A stretch of 18,056 bases of DNA from Deltaproteobacteria bacterium. GTDB lineage: Bacteria > Bdellovibrionota_F > JAHFAK01. Position 1 is the first letter of the stretch. The number at the start of each line of letters is the position of its first letter. The stretch is taken from assembly GCA_023250585.1 (NCBI GenBank), contig JAHFAK010000035.1, positions 1 through 18,056 of the forward strand. The letters run 5' to 3'. A program made the translations under genes and the position numbers. The notes beneath the pieces were generated by a model that had not been told where the DNA came from, did not search any database, and was given only the letters and a program-made list of their open reading frames with translations. Positions 3,357-14,902 of this stretch are shown piece after piece.

Positions 3357-4682
3357 CTAACAAACTACGTTAATATTCGAAAACTGCATATATGGCGTGC
3401 TGAGCGTTTCTTTTTCATGGAATCGTTTATTTCCGATGCAATCAATATTTTTGAAACATTCAAAGCTATTGCCTGCAATCATTATGTCTTTTACGCGTCC
3501 TACAATTTCTCCATTTTCAATATAAAATCCTATCTGAATATTATTTGAAAAATTACCGTTAATGATATTTCCCTGTCCTACGCCTAATAAAGAATAAATG
3601 ATAATGCCACGTTTGGTATTTTTAATTATATCGTCATTTTTGATCGTGCCTTCTTTAACTGATAAGCCAGTGGTATTAATCGTTGGCTCCATGAACATAT
3701 TCGGACTTGAGGCATTTGATCGAAAGCCATTCCCTGTTACTGTTGTATTCATGTTATGTGCGGTATTTAAATCATACAAGAATTCATTGATTCTGCCATT
3801 TTTTACAAGATATTTCTCGCGTATCGCAATACCTTCATCATCAAAATTACGCGAGAAGGTTGCATGATGGGTTTGAGGACTTTCCGTAATTGTTAAATGT
3901 GTGCTAAATTCTTGAAGACCTTCTTTTCCAAGTAATGGAGAAGTTCCTAAATACATATTATGTCCATTGAATGCATGGAATATCGGCAAAAATAATACAT
4001 CAATTGCATCCGGATGAAAAATTATTGGCACTTTTGTATTATTTCTATCGAGGCGAACTTTCTTTTTGGAATACTCGAAAACAAATATTATTTCTCGAGC
4101 GATTTCCATGATTGCTAGATCATATGCTCCGCTTGCTCCGCCTTTATAGACATTAATAATTTCTCCTTGATCAGAAAGAGTTCCTTCTATGACACATGAA
4201 TAAAGAGATTTTTTTTCACTCAGATTTAGTCCACGAGAATTAAGAAGATGTATATCGTTCGTCTCAGCTTCAAGATATACATTGATATCAATATCAGAAT
4301 TATACTCAGCGATCTTATTGACTACTTCTTGTCCTTGAAAGATTATCTTTTCATTTGAAAGATTTTCAATCGCTGGATCATACGTCTGTATACGATTATC
4401 GGCAGTATAATTATCGGTAAACTCGAATGCGCCTTCTTTTCCAAAAACCAAATTTGTTTTTAATTGTTCAATAATTTCTGGAATATTATGTAATGAAGTA
4501 GAAGCAAAAAATCCTATTTTCCCTTTATCAATAACCCGGATGGCAAAGCCTTCAGTAACTGATTCTTTAATCATCGTACACGCGCCAGAAGCAAATTGAA
4601 TAGGCCTTTTTTCTTTTCTAATAGAAAATAATTCCCATTCTCTAAAGGTTTTAGTGAGGATATCTACAAGTTTTTCTTTCAT
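3357..4682 (-). CDS. pmbA: TldE/PmbA-family protein, partner of TldD
   Basis: This 441-residue protein belongs to the TldD/PmbA (modulator of DNA gyrase) family. It lacks the HExxxH zinc motif: the matching region around residues 215-250 (IFHPDAIDVLFLP and what follows) has none. That is the hallmark of the non-catalytic TldE/PmbA subunit. Other family marks are FDDEGIAIREKYLVKNGRI (new strand and Gly turn), TKRGIIIYSLLGVGQGN, and the C-terminal barrel. TldD and TldE form a heterodimeric protease that degrades unfolded peptides and trims leader peptides of ribosomally made peptides such as microcin B17. The ATG is 8 nt downstream of the tldD stop, which supports co-expression of the two subunits. 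No Shine-Dalgarno is seen, so translation may be coupled. The 3' end abuts the palindromic element. Confidence 0.9.
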   Translation of the reverse strand: MKEKLVDILTKTFREWELFSIRKEKRPIQFASGACTMIKESVTEGFAIRVIDKGKIGFFASTSLHNIPEIIEQLKTNLVFGKEGAFEFTDNYTADNRIQTYDPAIENLSNEKIIFQGQEVVNKIAEYNSDIDINVYLEAETNDIHLLNSRGLNLSEKKSLYSCVIEGTLSDQGEIINVYKGGASGAYDLAIMEIAREIIFVFEYSKKKVRLDRNNTKVPIIFHPDAIDVLFLPIFHAFNGHNMYLGTSPLLGKEGLQEFSTHLTITESPQTHHATFSRNFDDEGIAIREKYLVKNGRINEFLYDLNTAHNMNTTVTGNGFRSNASSPNMFMEPTINTTGLSVKEGTIKNDDIIKNTKRGIIIYSLLGVGQGNIINGNFSNNIQIGFYIENGEIVGRVKDIMIAGNSFECFKNIDCIGNKRFHEKETLSTPYMQFSNINVVC

Positions 4683-4690
4683 AATTTGTT

Positions 4691-6064
4691 TTATCCACCA
4701 ACAATAACATTATTAATTTTAATATGAGGACTTCCTGTCGGAGTAGGCAAACCCACTTGTCCCATTTTGCCGCATCCTCCGTTTTCTTCCCATCCAAGAT
4801 CGTTCGCAATTAATTCAATATTTTGTAAGGTTTTAAAAAGATTTCCACTTAAAACTACATCGCACAGGGGAGTTGTTATTTTTCCATCTTCAATCATAAA
4901 TGCATATTCAGAACTAAAGGTGAAAAGCTCAAATGCGGTATTACCGCCAAAAAAACTCTTTGCATAAATTCCACGTTTCGTTGATTTCAGCAAATCTTCA
5001 AATGAAGCTTCCCCTCGATCAATATAGGTATTTGTCATGCGAACAATAGGCTCATAATGATAGCTCAGTGCTCGTGCATTGCCCGTGACTGCTTCATTCA
5101 TTTTTGCGGCAGTTTGACGTGAATGCAGTCTTCCCACAAGCTTTCCATTATGAATTAAATAATTCTTTTTTGTTTTTACGCCTTCATCATCATATTTATG
5201 AGTTCCTCGTAAACCTTCTCTCGAGCCATCATCAATTACATTTAAGGCAGGAACCGCAATGCTTCTTCCCAATTGCATAACATCTTTTAATTTTTTGTTT
5301 TCAGATATATGGTCAGCTTCACTAAAATGTCCAAATGCTTCATGAATGAATGTTCCCGCAAGGATAGGATCAAGAATCACCGTATATTCTCCGCCTTTAG
5401 GAGGTTGTGCATGAAGCAGCATCGCTGCACGTTGTGCAGTTTCATGCGCTTCTTGTTCAAGTGTTTCTAATGGACGAAATCCTCGTGACGTTGCAACGCC
5501 ACCTAACGCGCGTTGAATATTTTGGGCATTTTTAGCGGTAGCAACAAATCTAATACGTGCATCGGGCCGTTCTTCATGGATATATGTTCCTTCAGAGTTG
5601 CAGTAATATATGTGTGAAAATTCATCGCGATAATGTGTTGTTGTCGAAGCGATATGCTTATTTCGTAAGATAATGTCATTGTATTTTTCTACTAATTCTT
5701 TTTTTTCTTGCAATGGAACAATTCTAAAATCTTTATCTAAAATTGTTTTTACCTCATCAATAACCGGTGGAACTTCTTTTAAACTCACTTTTTTGTCTTC
5801 AGGTACGTTATGTGCAATCGTGCGAGCATTTTTCGTTGCCTTTTCAATTTCTTTTTCAAGATCATTGAGATTATTAAACGTTGATACTGCCCACGCTCCA
5901 GCAACGAGTGTCCTTACAATTCCACCAATGTCGCGAAGGCTTTGAATATGCTCGAGATCTTTTCCCTTATACGAAATAATAGTATAAGCTTTATCTTGTA
6001 TACGAACTTCTGTAAAATCTGCTTTTGATTTTTGTATAAGGTTTTGTACCGCTTGCTTCTCCAC
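4691..6064 (-). CDS. tldD: TldD metalloprotease subunit
   Basis: This 457-residue protein is the catalytic zinc subunit of the TldD/TldE protease. The metal-binding motif HEAFGH (residues 241-246, an HExxxH site) follows GEYTVILDPILAGTFI. The third ligand, a cysteine, is present as C431 in GGCGKMGQVGLPTPTG, the family's conserved C-terminal loop. DRGEASFEDLLKSTKRGIYA and FGGNTAFELFTF are typical of the C-terminal barrel. It starts with GTG (6064), two bases after the gltX stop; GGAG within the last gltX codons provides the Shine-Dalgarno with a 5-nt spacer, so the two are translationally linked. Together with the neighbouring pmbA it should form the cytosolic complex. No ribosomally made peptide precursor is visible nearby, so its role here is probably general peptide turnover. 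Confidence 0.95.
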   Translation of the reverse strand: MEKQAVQNLIQKSKADFTEVRIQDKAYTIISYKGKDLEHIQSLRDIGGIVRTLVAGAWAVSTFNNLNDLEKEIEKATKNARTIAHNVPEDKKVSLKEVPPVIDEVKTILDKDFRIVPLQEKKELVEKYNDIILRNKHIASTTTHYRDEFSHIYYCNSEGTYIHEERPDARIRFVATAKNAQNIQRALGGVATSRGFRPLETLEQEAHETAQRAAMLLHAQPPKGGEYTVILDPILAGTFIHEAFGHFSEADHISENKKLKDVMQLGRSIAVPALNVIDDGSREGLRGTHKYDDEGVKTKKNYLIHNGKLVGRLHSRQTAAKMNEAVTGNARALSYHYEPIVRMTNTYIDRGEASFEDLLKSTKRGIYAKSFFGGNTAFELFTFSSEYAFMIEDGKITTPLCDVVLSGNLFKTLQNIELIANDLGWEENGGCGKMGQVGLPTPTGSPHIKINNVIVGG

Positions 6065-7675: not shown

Positions 7676-8239
7676 ATGAATACGCGAATTATTTCTTTTT
7701 TGATTTCATTAGCACTATTTTTAAGTACAGAAAATTTTCTTTCCGCGACGGGCGTTCTCAGCAGTTTTTCTGATCTGATTCAAGAATCGCAAGCCGTAGT
7801 TGTCGGAGAAGTACTCGATCAAAAATCATTTTCTGATAATGATAAAATTTATACAGCTTATAGAGTACAGATTAAAGATGATATTGTTGATTCTCTTTCC
7901 ACTCAAGAGATCACTGTAGTAGTTCCTGGTGGAGTTTATGGCGATATAGGGCAGTATTACTCAATAGCGCCTACGATTAAACCAAGTGAAGAAGCTCTGT
8001 TCTTTCTAAAAGAGAGTCATTTTTATGATGCCTTTGAAATAACTGATTTTGTTGCTGGAAAGTACGATATTATCAACTATGAAGGTACTAAACTTATCTT
8101 TAATGAATCCCTCATTGATTATTTTTCTCAGGGAATAGAATTATCCAAAGAACAACAGTTCAAGCAGATGACAGAAAATAGTCAGTTTCATTTAGAAACC
8201 TTTAAGAAACAAATACAACAAGAGTGGAATAAAAAATGA
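7676..8239 (+). CDS. Secreted protein, putative partner of the downstream matrixin protease
   Basis: This 187-residue protein has a Sec signal peptide (MNTRIISFLISLALFLS..., cleavage near residues 23-26, around LSATG). The mature part has a compact beta-rich pattern: VVVGEVLDQKS, YTAYRVQI, ITVVVPGGVYGDIGQ and PSEEALFFL. The combination PGG...G...GEEALLFL is one I associate with small exported proteins beside matrixin-type proteases in deltaproteobacteria; this is memory, not a database result. The C-terminus is a charged helix (about residues 155-187). It overlaps the protease gene by 4 nt (ATGA at 8236-8239), a sign of translational coupling. Acting as a chaperone, inhibitor or substrate of the protease is inference only. 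Confidence 0.7.
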   Translation: MNTRIISFLISLALFLSTENFLSATGVLSSFSDLIQESQAVVVGEVLDQKSFSDNDKIYTAYRVQIKDDIVDSLSTQEITVVVPGGVYGDIGQYYSIAPTIKPSEEALFFLKESHFYDAFEITDFVAGKYDIINYEGTKLIFNESLIDYFSQGIELSKEQQFKQMTENSQFHLETFKKQIQQEWNKK

Positions 8240-9375
8240 AATATTATGTAGCCATAATTCATTGTGTTTTATTAGTTTCTACAAGTGCGTTCTCATTTTC
8301 TATTATTTCTTCTGAAGGCAAAAGCCTTAAATGGCAAGATAATGAAGTTGAATATTATATTAATGAACGAGGATCAGATGATTTTGTAAATGGATTTGAT
8401 TCAAACGGAGAGGCTATTTCTGAATTTGATATTATCAATAATTCATTTAAAACATGGCAGGATGTGGCAGGCACTAATCTAAACGTTGTGTACGAAGGGC
8501 TCACTTCAATTGCCGAAACAAAAATTGATAAAAAGAATGTAATTTTTTGGGTTGAGCAAGGTTGGACGTCTTTAGATTTTCATCCACCTCGCGGCGCTTT
8601 AGCAGTAACCATATCGAGCTTTGATTTAAAAAATGGCAAAATTCTTGATGCTGATATTCTTTTAAATGGAGAATATTTTAAATGGGCACATATCGATGCT
8701 GATGCTGAAACGCTCATGGTTGATGTTCAAAATACTACTACTCATGAAATTGGACATTTATTTGGGTTAGATCATTCATCAAACGATCCTTTTGAGGACA
8801 ATGAATCAATAAGAACGGCGACCATGTATTATGCCACAAATCCTGGTATTACCGATGGCCGCAGCCTGGAAGTTGATGACATTCTTGGATTAAAACATCT
8901 GTATGCAAAGAATGTTGATCAAATTCCTATTCCAACTATAGATGGAATTACTCCTGCGAGTGGAGACAACTCAAGTTTTGTGGTTTTAACAACACAAGGG
9001 GGGAAAAACTTCGCTGAAACAAGTTTGCTACGACTCGTGCCACATGAAGATGGGCTTTCAGATGTCATCGCAAAAGAAGTTTCAGTTGACGGAGGTGAGA
9101 TTACCTCATTGTTTGATTTACGGGGGGTTAAAATTGGCATATATGATGTAGTTGTCGCCAATGCTTATGGAAAAGAAGCAAAACTCGAAAAGGCATTTGA
9201 GGTTAAGGGCAACCCAAATGTCTATTATAATAGGAGTAAAGTAAGCTATGTTGATGGAGGTGGCTGCGGTCTTTTAAACAGTGGACACGAGAGCAACGCT
9301 TCTTGGATAATGATACTAACCCTTCTATGTTTTGGTATATTTGTAAGAAGACATGTGAATTCCCAAAAGCCATAG
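8236..9375 (+). CDS. Secreted matrixin-like zinc metalloprotease with IPT/TIG-like domain and C-terminal sorting signal
   Basis: This 379-residue protein starts with a signal peptide (cleavage near residue 20, SAFS). The catalytic domain runs to about residue 225 and carries the metzincin signature HEIGHLFGLDH (residues 170-180: H170, E171, H174, H180) and a Met-turn (TMYYA, M197), so it should bind Zn2+ and cut peptides outside the cytoplasm. EVEYYINERG and FHPPRGALAVT match matrixin-like enzymes. Residues 232-325 (IDGITPASGDNSSF...) look like an IPT/TIG or Ig-like domain. The end has a tripartite tail: GGGCG (341-345), hydrophobic helix (357-370) and RR (371-372), similar to MYXO-CTERM-type signals. 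That tail would retain the protein at a membrane until it is cleaved or processed. There is no pro-domain Cys switch. A weak GAGTGG Shine-Dalgarno lies upstream. Confidence 0.9.
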   Translation: MKYYVAIIHCVLLVSTSAFSFSIISSEGKSLKWQDNEVEYYINERGSDDFVNGFDSNGEAISEFDIINNSFKTWQDVAGTNLNVVYEGLTSIAETKIDKKNVIFWVEQGWTSLDFHPPRGALAVTISSFDLKNGKILDADILLNGEYFKWAHIDADAETLMVDVQNTTTHEIGHLFGLDHSSNDPFEDNESIRTATMYYATNPGITDGRSLEVDDILGLKHLYAKNVDQIPIPTIDGITPASGDNSSFVVLTTQGGKNFAETSLLRLVPHEDGLSDVIAKEVSVDGGEITSLFDLRGVKIGIYDVVVANAYGKEAKLEKAFEVKGNPNVYYNRSKVSYVDGGGCGLLNSGHESNASWIMILTLLCFGIFVRRHVNSQKP

Positions 9376-10970: not shown

Positions 10971-11603
10971 ATGCATCATAAGAAGGCCTACGTATTTGAT
11001 TTCGATGGTACGCTCGTTGATTCTATGGATAATTTTGCCGATATCGCTGGACAGATAATTGCAGATCATTATTCAGTAGATTATACGTTTGGTAAAGCGA
11101 AATATATTGCAACTTCAGGGCTTCCTTTTTGTGAGCAAATTGAAATCATTTTCCCTAAAAACCCAATGAATAGTCAGGCCGTTGAAGTATTCGAAGTGAA
11201 GAAACTTGAACGTTACTTTGAGGAAGATTTTTATCCGGATGTAGCCGAGACTATAAATTTTCTTAGATCAAAGGGAAAAAGAGTGATTATTTCGAGCAAC
11301 AACTATCAAAATGTTATTAATGAATATATTTCGCAAAAAGAAGTTATTTTCGATGATATCCTTGGTTTTCGAGAAGGTTTTTCCAAGGGTACAGATCATT
11401 TTAATTTTATTAAAAAAAAGTATGGTTTTGATGCTCATGAGCTGATTTTTATCGGTGACTCCTTAAAAGATGCTGAACATGCATATGCAAATAATATCGA
11501 CTTTATTGCGAAAGTGGGATTGTTTTCACACAAGGATTTCAAGCCATATTTAAAAGATGGAACACGAATTATCAATGCTTTGAAAGAATTAAAGAGCAAT
11601 TAA
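10971..11603 (+). CDS. HAD-superfamily phosphatase
   Basis: A 210-residue soluble haloacid-dehalogenase-type enzyme. Motif I DFDGTLVDS (10-18) supplies the nucleophile D10 and acid/base D12. Motif II is in VIISSNN (Ser 108/109), motif III is Lys 139 (FSKG), and motif IV is GDSLKD (162-167) with Mg2+-binding D163 and D167. The cap is helical (residues about 20-85), as in phosphoglycolate-phosphatase-like C1 HADs. The substrate cannot be read from the sequence. Its ATG is followed, one nucleotide after its own stop, by the nucleotidyltransferase gene. This suggests that it removes a phosphate from an intermediate or product of the same pathway. Confidence 0.9.
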   Translation: MHHKKAYVFDFDGTLVDSMDNFADIAGQIIADHYSVDYTFGKAKYIATSGLPFCEQIEIIFPKNPMNSQAVEVFEVKKLERYFEEDFYPDVAETINFLRSKGKRVIISSNNYQNVINEYISQKEVIFDDILGFREGFSKGTDHFNFIKKKYGFDAHELIFIGDSLKDAEHAYANNIDFIAKVGLFSHKDFKPYLKDGTRIINALKELKSN

Positions 11604-11604
11604 A

Positions 11605-12324
11605 ATGCAGATAGTTATTTTAGCAGCTGGTCGAGGTATTCGTATTAGTTCCATGACAAATAGTCGACCAAAAACTCTTATTGAGATTCAGGGTAGACCT
11701 ATTCTTGATTATATTTTATCCACTCTCCAAGCTATTAACTATAGTGAAATTATTATTGTTGGTGGTTATAAAATTGGAAAATTACAAGCTTTCCTTCAGA
11801 CAAGATCATATCAAAAAATACGATTAATTGAAAATAATGATTACCTCAAGGGAAGTGTTTTAACGATCCTTGCAGCAAAAAAGTATATAAAAGAAGAATT
11901 TTTACTTTTAAATGCTGACCATATTATTCCAGCAGCGCTTCTAAAAAAAATGTCACAAGAAAAATCAGGAATTACTATTGGATGTGACTTCGATCGAAAG
12001 CTTGGGCCAGATGACATGAAGGTAAAGTTGGATAGTAAAAAACATGTCAGTACTATGGACAAACAACTTATTGATTATGATTGTGGTTATATAGGAATGA
12101 CGTATTGTAGTTTTTCTATGAAAGATTTTTATTTTGAGGCTCTAGATACTATTTTAAAAATGAATGATGGTGAAGCAAAAAATGTTGAATTTATTATAAG
12201 TACTCTTGCCAAAACACAATCAATTAACATATGTGATTTAAGTAATGTCGGGTGGCTTGAAATTGATAATAATAAAGATTTGCAAACTGCTCGGTCAAAA
12301 ATTAATCATTTACCAATTCAATAG
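11605..12324 (+). CDS. Sugar/polyol-phosphate nucleotidyltransferase (IPCT-like)
   Basis: A 239-residue Rossmann-type nucleotidyltransferase that would activate a phosphorylated alcohol or sugar with an NTP. The N-terminal loop reads ILAAGRGIRI (residues 5-14; most relatives have GxGTR, here GRGIR), followed by RPKTLIEIQGRPIL. NADH (103-106) is the metal-binding strand, and the end has GWLEIDNNKDLQTA, a pattern seen in phosphocholine, aminoethylphosphonate and inositol-1-phosphate cytidylyltransferases. The order FDRKLGPDDMKVKLD and QLIDYDCGYIGMT resembles the cytidylyltransferase half of the archaeal IPCT/DIPP-synthase fusion. CTP is therefore the favoured NTP. No N-terminal signal is present, so the enzyme is cytosolic. 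It follows the HAD gene after 1 nt and overlaps the CDP-alcohol phosphotransferase tail-to-tail by 23 nt. Confidence 0.85.
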   Translation: MQIVILAAGRGIRISSMTNSRPKTLIEIQGRPILDYILSTLQAINYSEIIIVGGYKIGKLQAFLQTRSYQKIRLIENNDYLKGSVLTILAAKKYIKEEFLLLNADHIIPAALLKKMSQEKSGITIGCDFDRKLGPDDMKVKLDSKKHVSTMDKQLIDYDCGYIGMTYCSFSMKDFYFEALDTILKMNDGEAKNVEFIISTLAKTQSINICDLSNVGWLEIDNNKDLQTARSKINHLPIQ

Positions 12325-13591
12325 CTGCTTCTTTTTTCAAATTCCTTAAAGCCGTATACACTGCTAATGTCAGCATCCATGTAATATTACTGCCAATTGA
12401 AGTAGTTATAAATAAAACATCATTAAGATTCAGTAGCGCAAACGCGAACATTATATATGGCAGCGTTGACCGTTTAATGAATTCTTCCAATAGAAAAGCA
12501 ACTTTAAAGATAGCTTTATCTTTATTCGTCATTACTGCTTCTTTAAAAATTCTTCCAAATTCTTCCGGTCTATCTTTAGGTGCCATGACTTTTCGCAGGT
12601 AAAGATAAAGAATCATACTTAAAAACATTCCTGAAATTGCAATAACGGTGGGAACAAATGCAACCCTCCCATACATTCGATGAATCCCAAGACCTAGACC
12701 AAAGAAAACAAATACGTAATAGAGATAATCACATACGGTTTCTATCCAGCAGCCTAGAGGTGTTGATTTAAACTTATAACGCGCAACTTCCCCATCGCAT
12801 CCATCAAGCCAGCTTGAAAAAAGTCCAAGAAAAGCTCCAATTAACATATTGTTATATCCACCTTGAGAATATGCAAATCCAGCTAAAGCACTAAAAAGAA
12901 GAGCAATAAACGAAATAGTATTTGGAGTTAGACGAATTTTGAGAAAAAAATATTTAGTCATGGGAATAGAAAATTTTCGGGATACAAGTCCTAAAGTACT
13001 TTCATATTTTTTGAAAATAGTCCTTTCTACTTTTTTTCTATATACTTTAAGATCCCCATATGAATTCAGTTTATGCCAACAGCTTTCTTTAAAATTTCTT
13101 ATTGAAGTTTTTATTGAGGCATTGCCATCATTTTTTGTAATAGAAATTCCTTGCGAGAAATTTTCCTTGTTTGTTAATACTATGCCTGCAAATTTTTTAG
13201 TTTCGCTTCCTTGTAATATCTGTAAGTCATAAGAACTTTCTTCAAGAACTTCAAAAAGCTCTTTATGAAAAACAAAATATCTTCCATTTAAAATAATATT
13301 TTTATACGAAGGAACAATGTGCTTGAGATTTGAACTGTGCACTATTTGTATATCACGATTGTGATAATAGGTATGTTTTTTTATGTAATTAATGCTTGCC
13401 AATACTGCTTGCATAGCCAGTGTATCATCTATTTCAACATACAAAGTTTTTACGCCAACATTAAGGAGGCTATACATTTGTCGGGTGAGATGGGCCAACC
13501 CCAAAAGCTTTTTATTACAGCTCGTAAAGGTGTTGCCATTTGGTTCAGTAATCGAAAAATGTGCGTCTGTAATGATACCGATCATACGCAT
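12302..13591 (-). CDS. CDP-alcohol phosphotransferase with degenerate N-terminal nucleotidyltransferase domain
   Basis: Counted from the GTG at 13642, the longest frame has 446 codons; this ATG is codon 18. The C-terminal membrane half (codons about 240-440, with five or six hydrophobic helices) is a CDP-alcohol phosphotransferase. The signature D-x-x-D-G-x-x-A-R...G-x-x-x-D-x-x-x-D reads DGCDGEVAR (280-288) then GCWIETVCD (297-305). The third acidic residue is Glu (E301) instead of Asp; D280, D283 and D305 are present. Such enzymes transfer the phospho-alcohol of a CDP-linked substrate to an acceptor alcohol. The N-terminal half (about 21-170) has the alternating strands and helices of a nucleotidyltransferase but lost the Gly-rich LAAG-x-G loop (GIITDAHFSI stands in), so it is probably non-catalytic. 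SRKFS and TPNTISFIALLFSALAG match the linker of the inositol IPCT/DIPPS fusion. The start is uncertain: GTG 13642, ATG 13603, 13591 or 13585. No Shine-Dalgarno decides. Confidence 0.88.
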   Translation of the reverse strand: MRMIGIITDAHFSITEPNGNTFTSCNKKLLGLAHLTRQMYSLLNVGVKTLYVEIDDTLAMQAVLASINYIKKHTYYHNRDIQIVHSSNLKHIVPSYKNIILNGRYFVFHKELFEVLEESSYDLQILQGSETKKFAGIVLTNKENFSQGISITKNDGNASIKTSIRNFKESCWHKLNSYGDLKVYRKKVERTIFKKYESTLGLVSRKFSIPMTKYFFLKIRLTPNTISFIALLFSALAGFAYSQGGYNNMLIGAFLGLFSSWLDGCDGEVARYKFKSTPLGCWIETVCDYLYYVFVFFGLGLGIHRMYGRVAFVPTVIAISGMFLSMILYLYLRKVMAPKDRPEEFGRIFKEAVMTNKDKAIFKVAFLLEEFIKRSTLPYIMFAFALLNLNDVLFITTSIGSNITWMLTLAVYTALRNLKKEAAIELVND

Positions 13592-13657
13592 AGTCTTTAG
13601 CATATTAGGATAGACATGTAAATGATTAAAAAGATAAACCACAATGTACTACATCAA

Positions 13658-13885: not shown

Positions 13886-14902
13886 ATGAAGTGGAAAATA
13901 TTCTATGCTCTTGTTATCTGTAGCATGTTTTTTTCGAGGGTATTATTAGCCGATGACGAAAAATCTGATCAAGAAACGAAGAAACCAACATTAACCATTG
14001 CAAGTTGGAATATCGATGCAATTGATTTAAAGGATATACAAAAAATTGTAGAAGGAATAACAAAACTTAATCCACAAATACTCTGTTTGCAAGAAGTCGA
14101 TGTATTAACGAAACGAAAACGAGAAAATTTTGTTGATGTACGACAGACTTTATTGGAGTTACTCACTAAAACCTTTGGATCAATTTCATATCACTATGCG
14201 AAAGAATTTCAGGAATTAGTAGAGATCTGGAAAGCAGAAGCAGAAAAAGCAGACGGTGATTATAATGTAAGTGAACATGTGAAAGATACAATAGCTACAG
14301 GTCAGATGACGCTTATACGAGAACCGATTACTTTTACCAAACCTTATGATACAGCTCAAAGTTTAACTTTTAAAAAACAATATTGGTTGTGGACTCATTT
14401 GAATACTTTGAAGTGGCTTAGTTACAAAATCAGAGATAAAGGACTTGAAGCCCGTGAAGGGGGTCGAGTTGTACTCTTGAGTACTATTCATCATCCCGAA
14501 TTTGGTGATATCTATATTATAAATTTACATTTAGAAAGTAAGAAAGAAGATAGAGAAATTCGTATGAAACAGCTTGAAGAACTATTTAGTTCCAAACTTT
14601 TTAAAGACATTGGTGATCAAAAGATTATCCTTGCTGGTGACTTTAATGAACATCAAAATGGATTGAATCCATATATTACTGAAACTTTTGGTTTCCGCAA
14701 TCCCTTTTCTGAGAGTAAGATCCCGACCTATCCTCACGCCGATAAATCTGGTGATCGCATAGATTTTATCTATCTTAAAAATTTTGATGAAAATCTCATT
14801 ATACGGCCAACTGTTTATGGGGAAGAGAATGGAGGTCATGGCAAATGTACTATCGAAGGCTCAGATCATTGTCCTATTTCGATTGATATTATTATTCCAT
14901 AA
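13886..14902 (+). CDS. Secreted endonuclease/exonuclease/phosphatase (EEP) family hydrolase
   Basis: This 338-residue protein begins with a signal peptide (MKWKIFYALVICSMFFSRVLLA, cleavage likely after residue 22, before DDE). The mature part is a DNase I-like fold: ASWNID (39-44), LQEVD (68-72), NLHLES (213-218), GDFNEH (251-256), RIDFIY (291-296) and SDHCPI (326-331). The Asn/Asp/His/Glu residues that bind Mg2+ and polarise water are therefore all present, and the enzyme should cleave a phosphodiester outside the cytoplasm. The substrate could be DNA, RNA or a phospholipid/phosphoinositide; sphingomyelinase-like and inositol-5-phosphatase-like members share these motifs. A helical insert (about 105-190) with many charged residues is unusual in length. 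It is driven by a strong promoter and Shine-Dalgarno, and the DUF6454-like lipoprotein follows after 21 nt. Confidence 0.85.
   Translation: MKWKIFYALVICSMFFSRVLLADDEKSDQETKKPTLTIASWNIDAIDLKDIQKIVEGITKLNPQILCLQEVDVLTKRKRENFVDVRQTLLELLTKTFGSISYHYAKEFQELVEIWKAEAEKADGDYNVSEHVKDTIATGQMTLIREPITFTKPYDTAQSLTFKKQYWLWTHLNTLKWLSYKIRDKGLEAREGGRVVLLSTIHHPEFGDIYIINLHLESKKEDREIRMKQLEELFSSKLFKDIGDQKIILAGDFNEHQNGLNPYITETFGFRNPFSESKIPTYPHADKSGDRIDFIYLKNFDENLIIRPTVYGEENGGHGKCTIEGSDHCPISIDIIIP

Follow-up and report, generated by a model that had tools for sequence, protein, structure and literature searches.

Adjacent phosphatase, nucleotidyltransferase and CDP-alcohol phosphotransferase genes as a probable phosphoinositol-type module in a Deltaproteobacteria bacterium

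Three adjacent genes encoding a HAD-superfamily phosphatase (HAD), a nucleotidyltransferase (NTase) and a CDP-alcohol phosphotransferase (CDP-AP) probably form a conserved phosphoinositol-type module. We give roughly even odds (about 50%) to the reading that they make CDP-inositol, transfer phosphoinositol and remove a phosphate. This reading is based on the identities of the genes, on the linkage of their relatives to inositol-1-phosphate synthase (MIPS) and to LPG_synthase_TM in other genomes, on a fusion of IPCT/DIPPS with a similar HAD, and on the homology of a relic domain in the CDP-AP. Rather than new chemistry, the system seems to be a diverged form of a pathway that has until now been proposed for gut Bacteroides alone; the original prediction had called it unrecognised, a claim that falls since the same enzyme set was already proposed for Bacteroides (PMC9246714).

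The genes lie in a window of 18,056 nucleotides, the whole stretch of DNA that was analysed, which is an entire contig (C88) of a 2.24 Mb genome that is 97% complete. The HAD (10971-11603, plus strand, 210 amino acids) matches Pfam HAD_2 (1.2e-17), retains unbroken motifs (DFDGT, SS, K and GDS..D) and belongs to an uncommon subfamily whose genes are associated with those of CDP-alcohol enzymes. A single base (11604) separates its stop from the start of the NTase (11605-12324, plus strand, 239 amino acids; NTP_transf_3, 1.4e-13), a candidate CTP:inositol-1-phosphate cytidylyltransferase-like enzyme with an intact catalytic loop (LAAGRGIR, PK). The CDP-AP (12302-13642, minus strand, 446 amino acids, GTG start) matches CDP-OH_P_transf (PF01066, 7.6e-8; 33.3 bits for a gathering cut-off of 22) and presents an AF2299-like architecture. 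It is formed of an N-terminal degenerate cytidylyltransferase-like domain (13000-13582, codons about 21-214), matched to IPCT by profile-profile comparison, and of a membrane domain with predicted helices that carries the active-site motif (12305-12930, codons about 238-446; Pfam stretch 238-358). All three Pfam matches exceed the gathering scores, and the reading frames agree with the prediction of three such genes, including the one-nucleotide spacing and an NTase encoded as a separate protein. The CDP-AP lies on the opposite strand, convergent to the NTase with an overlap of 23 bp, so that the three genes of the window are adjacent and not one operon. Elsewhere in the window, a secreted-looking protein of the endonuclease/exonuclease/phosphatase family, which could be a phosphodiesterase (13886-14902; Exo_endo_phos, 8.5e-9), is encoded beside the start of the CDP-AP. 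A matrixin-like metalloprotease (8236-9375; PF00413, 1.8e-8) ends with Gly-Cys-Gly and a hydrophobic tail resembling a cell-surface sorting signal, and an adjacent gene pair (3357-6064) resembles, by eye, a protease pair of the TldD/PmbA type.

The linkage of these genes was examined by tblastn in 48 loci selected for the presence of the HAD, the window included. The NTase adjoins the HAD in 46 of them, which suggests linkage far above chance for genomes of about two to four thousand genes, and the CDP-AP is found in 33. LPG_synthase_TM is fused or nearby in 26/48 and MIPS is encoded within 8 kb in 14/48, both counts being lower bounds because many loci end at contig edges. All five genes occur together, mostly co-directional, in 10/48 loci; same-class genomes among the 48 are not independent. 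The three genes, whose co-occurrence across genomes was to be checked, are linked in other genomes. In G269, for instance, the row comprises MIPS, a small ORF, an NTase fused to LPG_synthase_TM, the HAD and the CDP-AP, while a Kofleriaceae MAG carries HAD, NTase and CDP-AP on the same strand and G132, G361 and G093 encode the HAD-NTase pair. The scan of named genomes also gave a Deltaproteobacteria MAG (nzgw603) and an uncultured delta proteobacterium MAG.

The N-terminal domain of the CDP-AP had been predicted to be a degenerate nucleotidyltransferase-like domain that has lost its Gly-rich loop, and this is borne out at the family level. Indeed, when 19 relatives, the window sequence among them, are combined into a profile, it matches the IPCT profile with an hhalign probability of 98.3% (E 1.4e-14), compared to E-values of 0.3-0.4 for control profiles (HAD, LPG), and the probability is 98.2% when the window sequence is left out. 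The window N-terminal sequence taken alone reaches a probability of only 1.8% against IPCT, and it aligns with the remaining relatives at E 1.8e-4. The Gly-rich loop is absent from this domain, and a GL..L.R motif is common to it, to AF2299 and to IPCT. A profile of 12 whole CDP-APs matches AF2299 (4o6m) at 1.9e-41 and IPCT-DIPPS (4mnd) at 3.8e-30, the latter match spanning the cytidylyltransferase domain, and the window CDP-AP alone matches AF2299 at 9.4e-9. An AlphaFold model built with two relatives as input had a mean pLDDT of 45 (about 60-80 across much of the membrane domain). Foldseek ranked AF2299 first with this model (E about 1e-3, low TM-scores), a ranking that, given the poor model, we do not take to establish the fold of the domain. 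By sequence comparison, the domain is a relic cytidylyltransferase. Its presence on a stand-alone CDP-AP is not a novelty, as AF2299 already combines an N-terminal cytidylyltransferase-like domain with a CDP-AP membrane domain (PMC4634129). Unlike AF2299, for which CDP-glycerol is the reported donor (PMC4634129), the window gene has an intact NTase and a HAD phosphatase as neighbours, and a Glu replaces the third Asp of its motif.

This substitution concerns a metal ligand of the active site. The window motif reads DGCDGEVAR...GCWIETVCD, and DGCDGEVARYKFKSTPLGCWIETVCD keeps every position of D-x2-D-G-x2-A-R-x8/9-G-x3-D-x3-D except for this Glu, which is unique to the window among the 24 sequences compared, the 23 relatives all having Asp. 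Similarly, the window protein reads KRS where many relatives read KRD or KKD. Its frame is intact, and these residues may mean a changed activity of the enzyme in this genome. A first scan of the genome contigs with the single window CDP-AP sequence as query returned no match. Among the loci compared, two contain a tandem pair of AF2299-like CDP-APs (L123, 6378-8857; L063, 4091-6531), and in two others an AF2299-like CDP-AP adjoins MIPS without a neighbouring NTase or HAD of the window type (L246, 5758-8339; L247, 118-2945).

The HAD subfamily is rare: of the 386 genomes sampled, 9 have a match at E<=1e-15, and 8 of these still match at E<=1e-30. Searches of plasmids only returned matches at 25-28%. 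In a tree, 11 members form a monophyletic clade apart from other HADs (support 100/99). Within particular groups the HAD is more widespread, being present in 32/46 genomes of the class of nzgw603 and in 10/35 genomes of the order of the Kofleriaceae MAG. Most IPCT/DIPPS fusions that were found have no window-type HAD alongside. G002, however, encodes a single protein of 700 amino acids in the order NTase-CDP-AP-HAD, whose first 460 residues are an IPCT/DIPPS (NF041135, 4.7e-74 over nearly the full model) and whose remainder is a window-type HAD. In G135, the HAD adjoins a gene resembling archaetidylinositol-phosphate synthase. Both arrangements fit the proposed role of the HAD as phosphatase of a condensation product.

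The best solved relative of the NTase is the IPCT 2xme (7.5e-11 with the single sequence, 3.6e-34 with the family profile). In a tree of 46 NTase sequences, however, the window NTase falls outside the IPCT clade: the seven NTases linked to the HAD make up a clade by themselves (100/98), apart from nearly every IPCT fusion, whereas the NTase domain of the fused G002 protein is placed among these fusions. The HAD-linked NTases group with other NTases, some of which are encoded beside genes resembling, by eye, glycerol-1-phosphate dehydrogenase, and the IPCT signature DTG is replaced by GYIG in their clade. With this placement and this signature, inositol phosphate is only a putative substrate. 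Two loci (L064, 4665-7366; L066, 5881-8547) contain in a row an NTase, a 355-amino-acid protein resembling, by eye, glycerol-1-phosphate dehydrogenase, and a CDP-AP, possibly a bacterial CDP-glycerol-type pathway. The window NTase and CDP-AP are homologous to the two halves of IPCT/DIPPS (Archaeoglobus 4mnd, Thermococcales NF041135), but they are encoded by two separate genes, the CDP-AP retaining the relic domain, and they score 73.4 and 43.7 bits against NF041135, well under its equivalog cut-off of 580. A separate IPCT is also known from the di-myo-inositol-phosphate synthesis of Thermotoga (4jd0).

An inositol-1-phosphate synthase was expected in the genome and was indeed found, on another contig (L077 on C151), unlinked to the three genes; in other genomes MIPS clusters with the gene set. 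MIPS is present in seven of the eight HAD-NTase genomes examined (G000, which is the window genome, G093, G132, G269, G361, G390 and G392) and absent from the eighth (G391), compared to 74 of the 386 sampled genomes. The argument that a MIPS in the genome proves the use of inositol by the three genes was rejected, since a PIP-synthase-like CDP-AP of the window genome (C54; PIPSynBT1523 model, 7.9e-42, under its cut-off) could account for it. Such enzymes also occur in G269, G390, G132, G391 and G392. The presence of MIPS in a genome is therefore weak evidence alone, and its physical linkage in relatives is stronger. The bacterial PIP synthase route (BT_1522/23/25 type; Mycobacterium PgsA1) similarly draws inositol from the MIPS product and needs a phosphatase, but its donor is CDP-DAG and the window genome has a separate PIP-synthase-like gene. 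MIPS also has a recurrent neighbour, a conserved protein of only about 110-120 amino acids that ends with ...EE(I/V)TE(R/K)...A..DP and whose gene often lies on the opposite strand, with LPG_synthase_TM on one side and MIPS on the other (L057, 5550-5912; L284, 4593-4946; L289, 2627-2986; L290, 7985-8365; L293, 7605-7919; L296, 5355-5717; L297, 5231-5593; L244, 9698-10039); it was not found near the MIPS of the window genome.

In the proposed module, MIPS would supply inositol-1-phosphate from elsewhere in the genome, and the NTase would use CTP to activate this putative substrate as CDP-inositol. In the membrane, the CDP-AP, with its inactive cytidylyltransferase-like domain, would then transfer phosphoinositol from CDP-inositol to an acceptor, giving a phosphoinositol phosphodiester and CMP; we infer this step, its direction and its acceptor from the chemistry of the family. 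As suggested by its fusion and neighbourhood, the HAD may strip a remaining phosphomonoester from the condensation product, or from the acceptor. Because the recurrent partner LPG_synthase_TM is a membrane family tied to lipids, we favour, with low certainty, an inositol-containing membrane lipid over a free solute. Several observations go against the module: the HAD-linked NTases stand apart from IPCTs, MIPS is unlinked in the window genome and could be used there by the PIP-synthase-like CDP-AP, AF2299 and DIPPS do not process lipids, and the window CDP-AP is convergent, with Glu for the third Asp and KRS for KRD. Taken together, the predicted pathway of a linked HAD, a separate NTase and a CDP-AP with a relic domain is largely supported by family matches and conserved linkage.

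Within the same module, CDP-inositol could instead be condensed with inositol-1-phosphate to di-inositol-phosphate (DIPP), the HAD being a DIPP phosphatase and the product a compatible solute. The reported occurrence of IPCT/DIPPS in non-thermophiles (PMC8397731) makes such a product conceivable, CDP-AP relatives match IPCT/DIPPS best (NF041135; e.g., 2.7e-27 for G269), the G002 fusion associates this very enzyme with a window-type HAD, and neither AF2299 nor DIPPS processes lipids (PMC4634129). However, the frequent LPG_synthase_TM fits a lipid, the scores of the window CDP-AP for DIPPS (NF041135) and for archaetidylinositol phosphate synthase are much alike and far under both cut-offs, and a window-type HAD adjoins few of the fusions, which makes a solute rather unlikely. 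Unlikely as well is an NTase that uses glycerol phosphate, glycerate, phosphocholine or a related compound to make a different CDP-alcohol, for another head group, with the MIPS linkage reflecting an inositol-containing acceptor or the mere clustering of lipid genes. The separate clade of the NTase and its GYIG signature would be in line with this, as would the phosphocholine and phosphoglycerate members of its family and the binding of CDP-glycerol by AF2299 (PMC4634129), whereas its closest solved relatives are IPCTs and the physical linkage to MIPS recurs.

The HAD might also be a phosphatidylinositol-phosphate phosphatase serving the separate PIP-synthase-like enzyme, in which case the NTase and the CDP-AP would add a second phospho-alcohol to phosphatidylinositol. 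Such PIP-synthase-like enzymes exist in the window genome and five relatives, and the HAD of G135 has an archaetidylinositol-phosphate-synthase-like neighbour; but no MIPS was detected in G135, and the near-constant association of the HAD with the NTase as well as its fusion in G002 render this explanation improbable. Finally, the CDP-AP may have lost or changed its activity in this genome, only the HAD and the NTase still acting together. Its unique Glu, its KRS and its convergent orientation could be read in this way, but the intact frame of 446 codons, the other conserved motif residues and a PF01066 score above the gathering cut-off make it improbable as well.

Among the closest counterparts of the proposed phosphoinositol-transfer module is the putative alternative inositol-lipid cluster of Bacteroides vulgatus and Prevotella, formed of an NTP transferase, a CDP-AP, a HAD and MIPS, for which CDP-inositol was proposed as donor for inositol lipids, with functions unconfirmed in that work (Heaver et al., 2022; PMC9246714). 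We compared the window set with Bacteroidaceae genomes, the first of which had an ordinary BT-like cluster. Both sets comprise the NTase, the CDP-AP, the HAD and MIPS, and LPG_synthase_TM is also present at the Bacteroidaceae loci (L257 and L262), as it is near the window's relatives; the adjacency of NTase, CDP-AP and HAD is met in the window and in 33/48 loci in all. On the contrary, the Bacteroides HADs lie outside the window HAD clade and are missed by the window-family profile, the NTases of the two sets occupy distant positions in the tree, and no 200-amino-acid relic domain is present on the Bacteroides CDP-AP. Moreover, MIPS belongs to the cluster in Bacteroides, while it is unlinked in the window genome, and Bacteroides has an extra protein of 281-289 amino acids. 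Judging from these comparisons, the window set resembles the Bacteroides cluster in its presumed function, and homology does not place it within that cluster.

It is possible, though we put it forward tentatively, that a class of Deltaproteobacteria-like lineages makes an undescribed inositol lipid via CDP-inositol from the five-gene locus, alongside an ordinary PIP-synthase route, with the HAD representing a new subfamily of phosphatases that act on phosphoinositol condensation products and the window genome holding a rearranged remnant or version. One genome has a member of the HAD subfamily fused to IPCT/DIPPS, and the subfamily is a candidate phosphatase for CDP-inositol-type pathways. Kept across one class, the gene set is a second, distantly related assembly of the same enzyme types tied to MIPS and LPG_synthase_TM, which makes the idea of CDP-inositol as a donor testable in other organisms.
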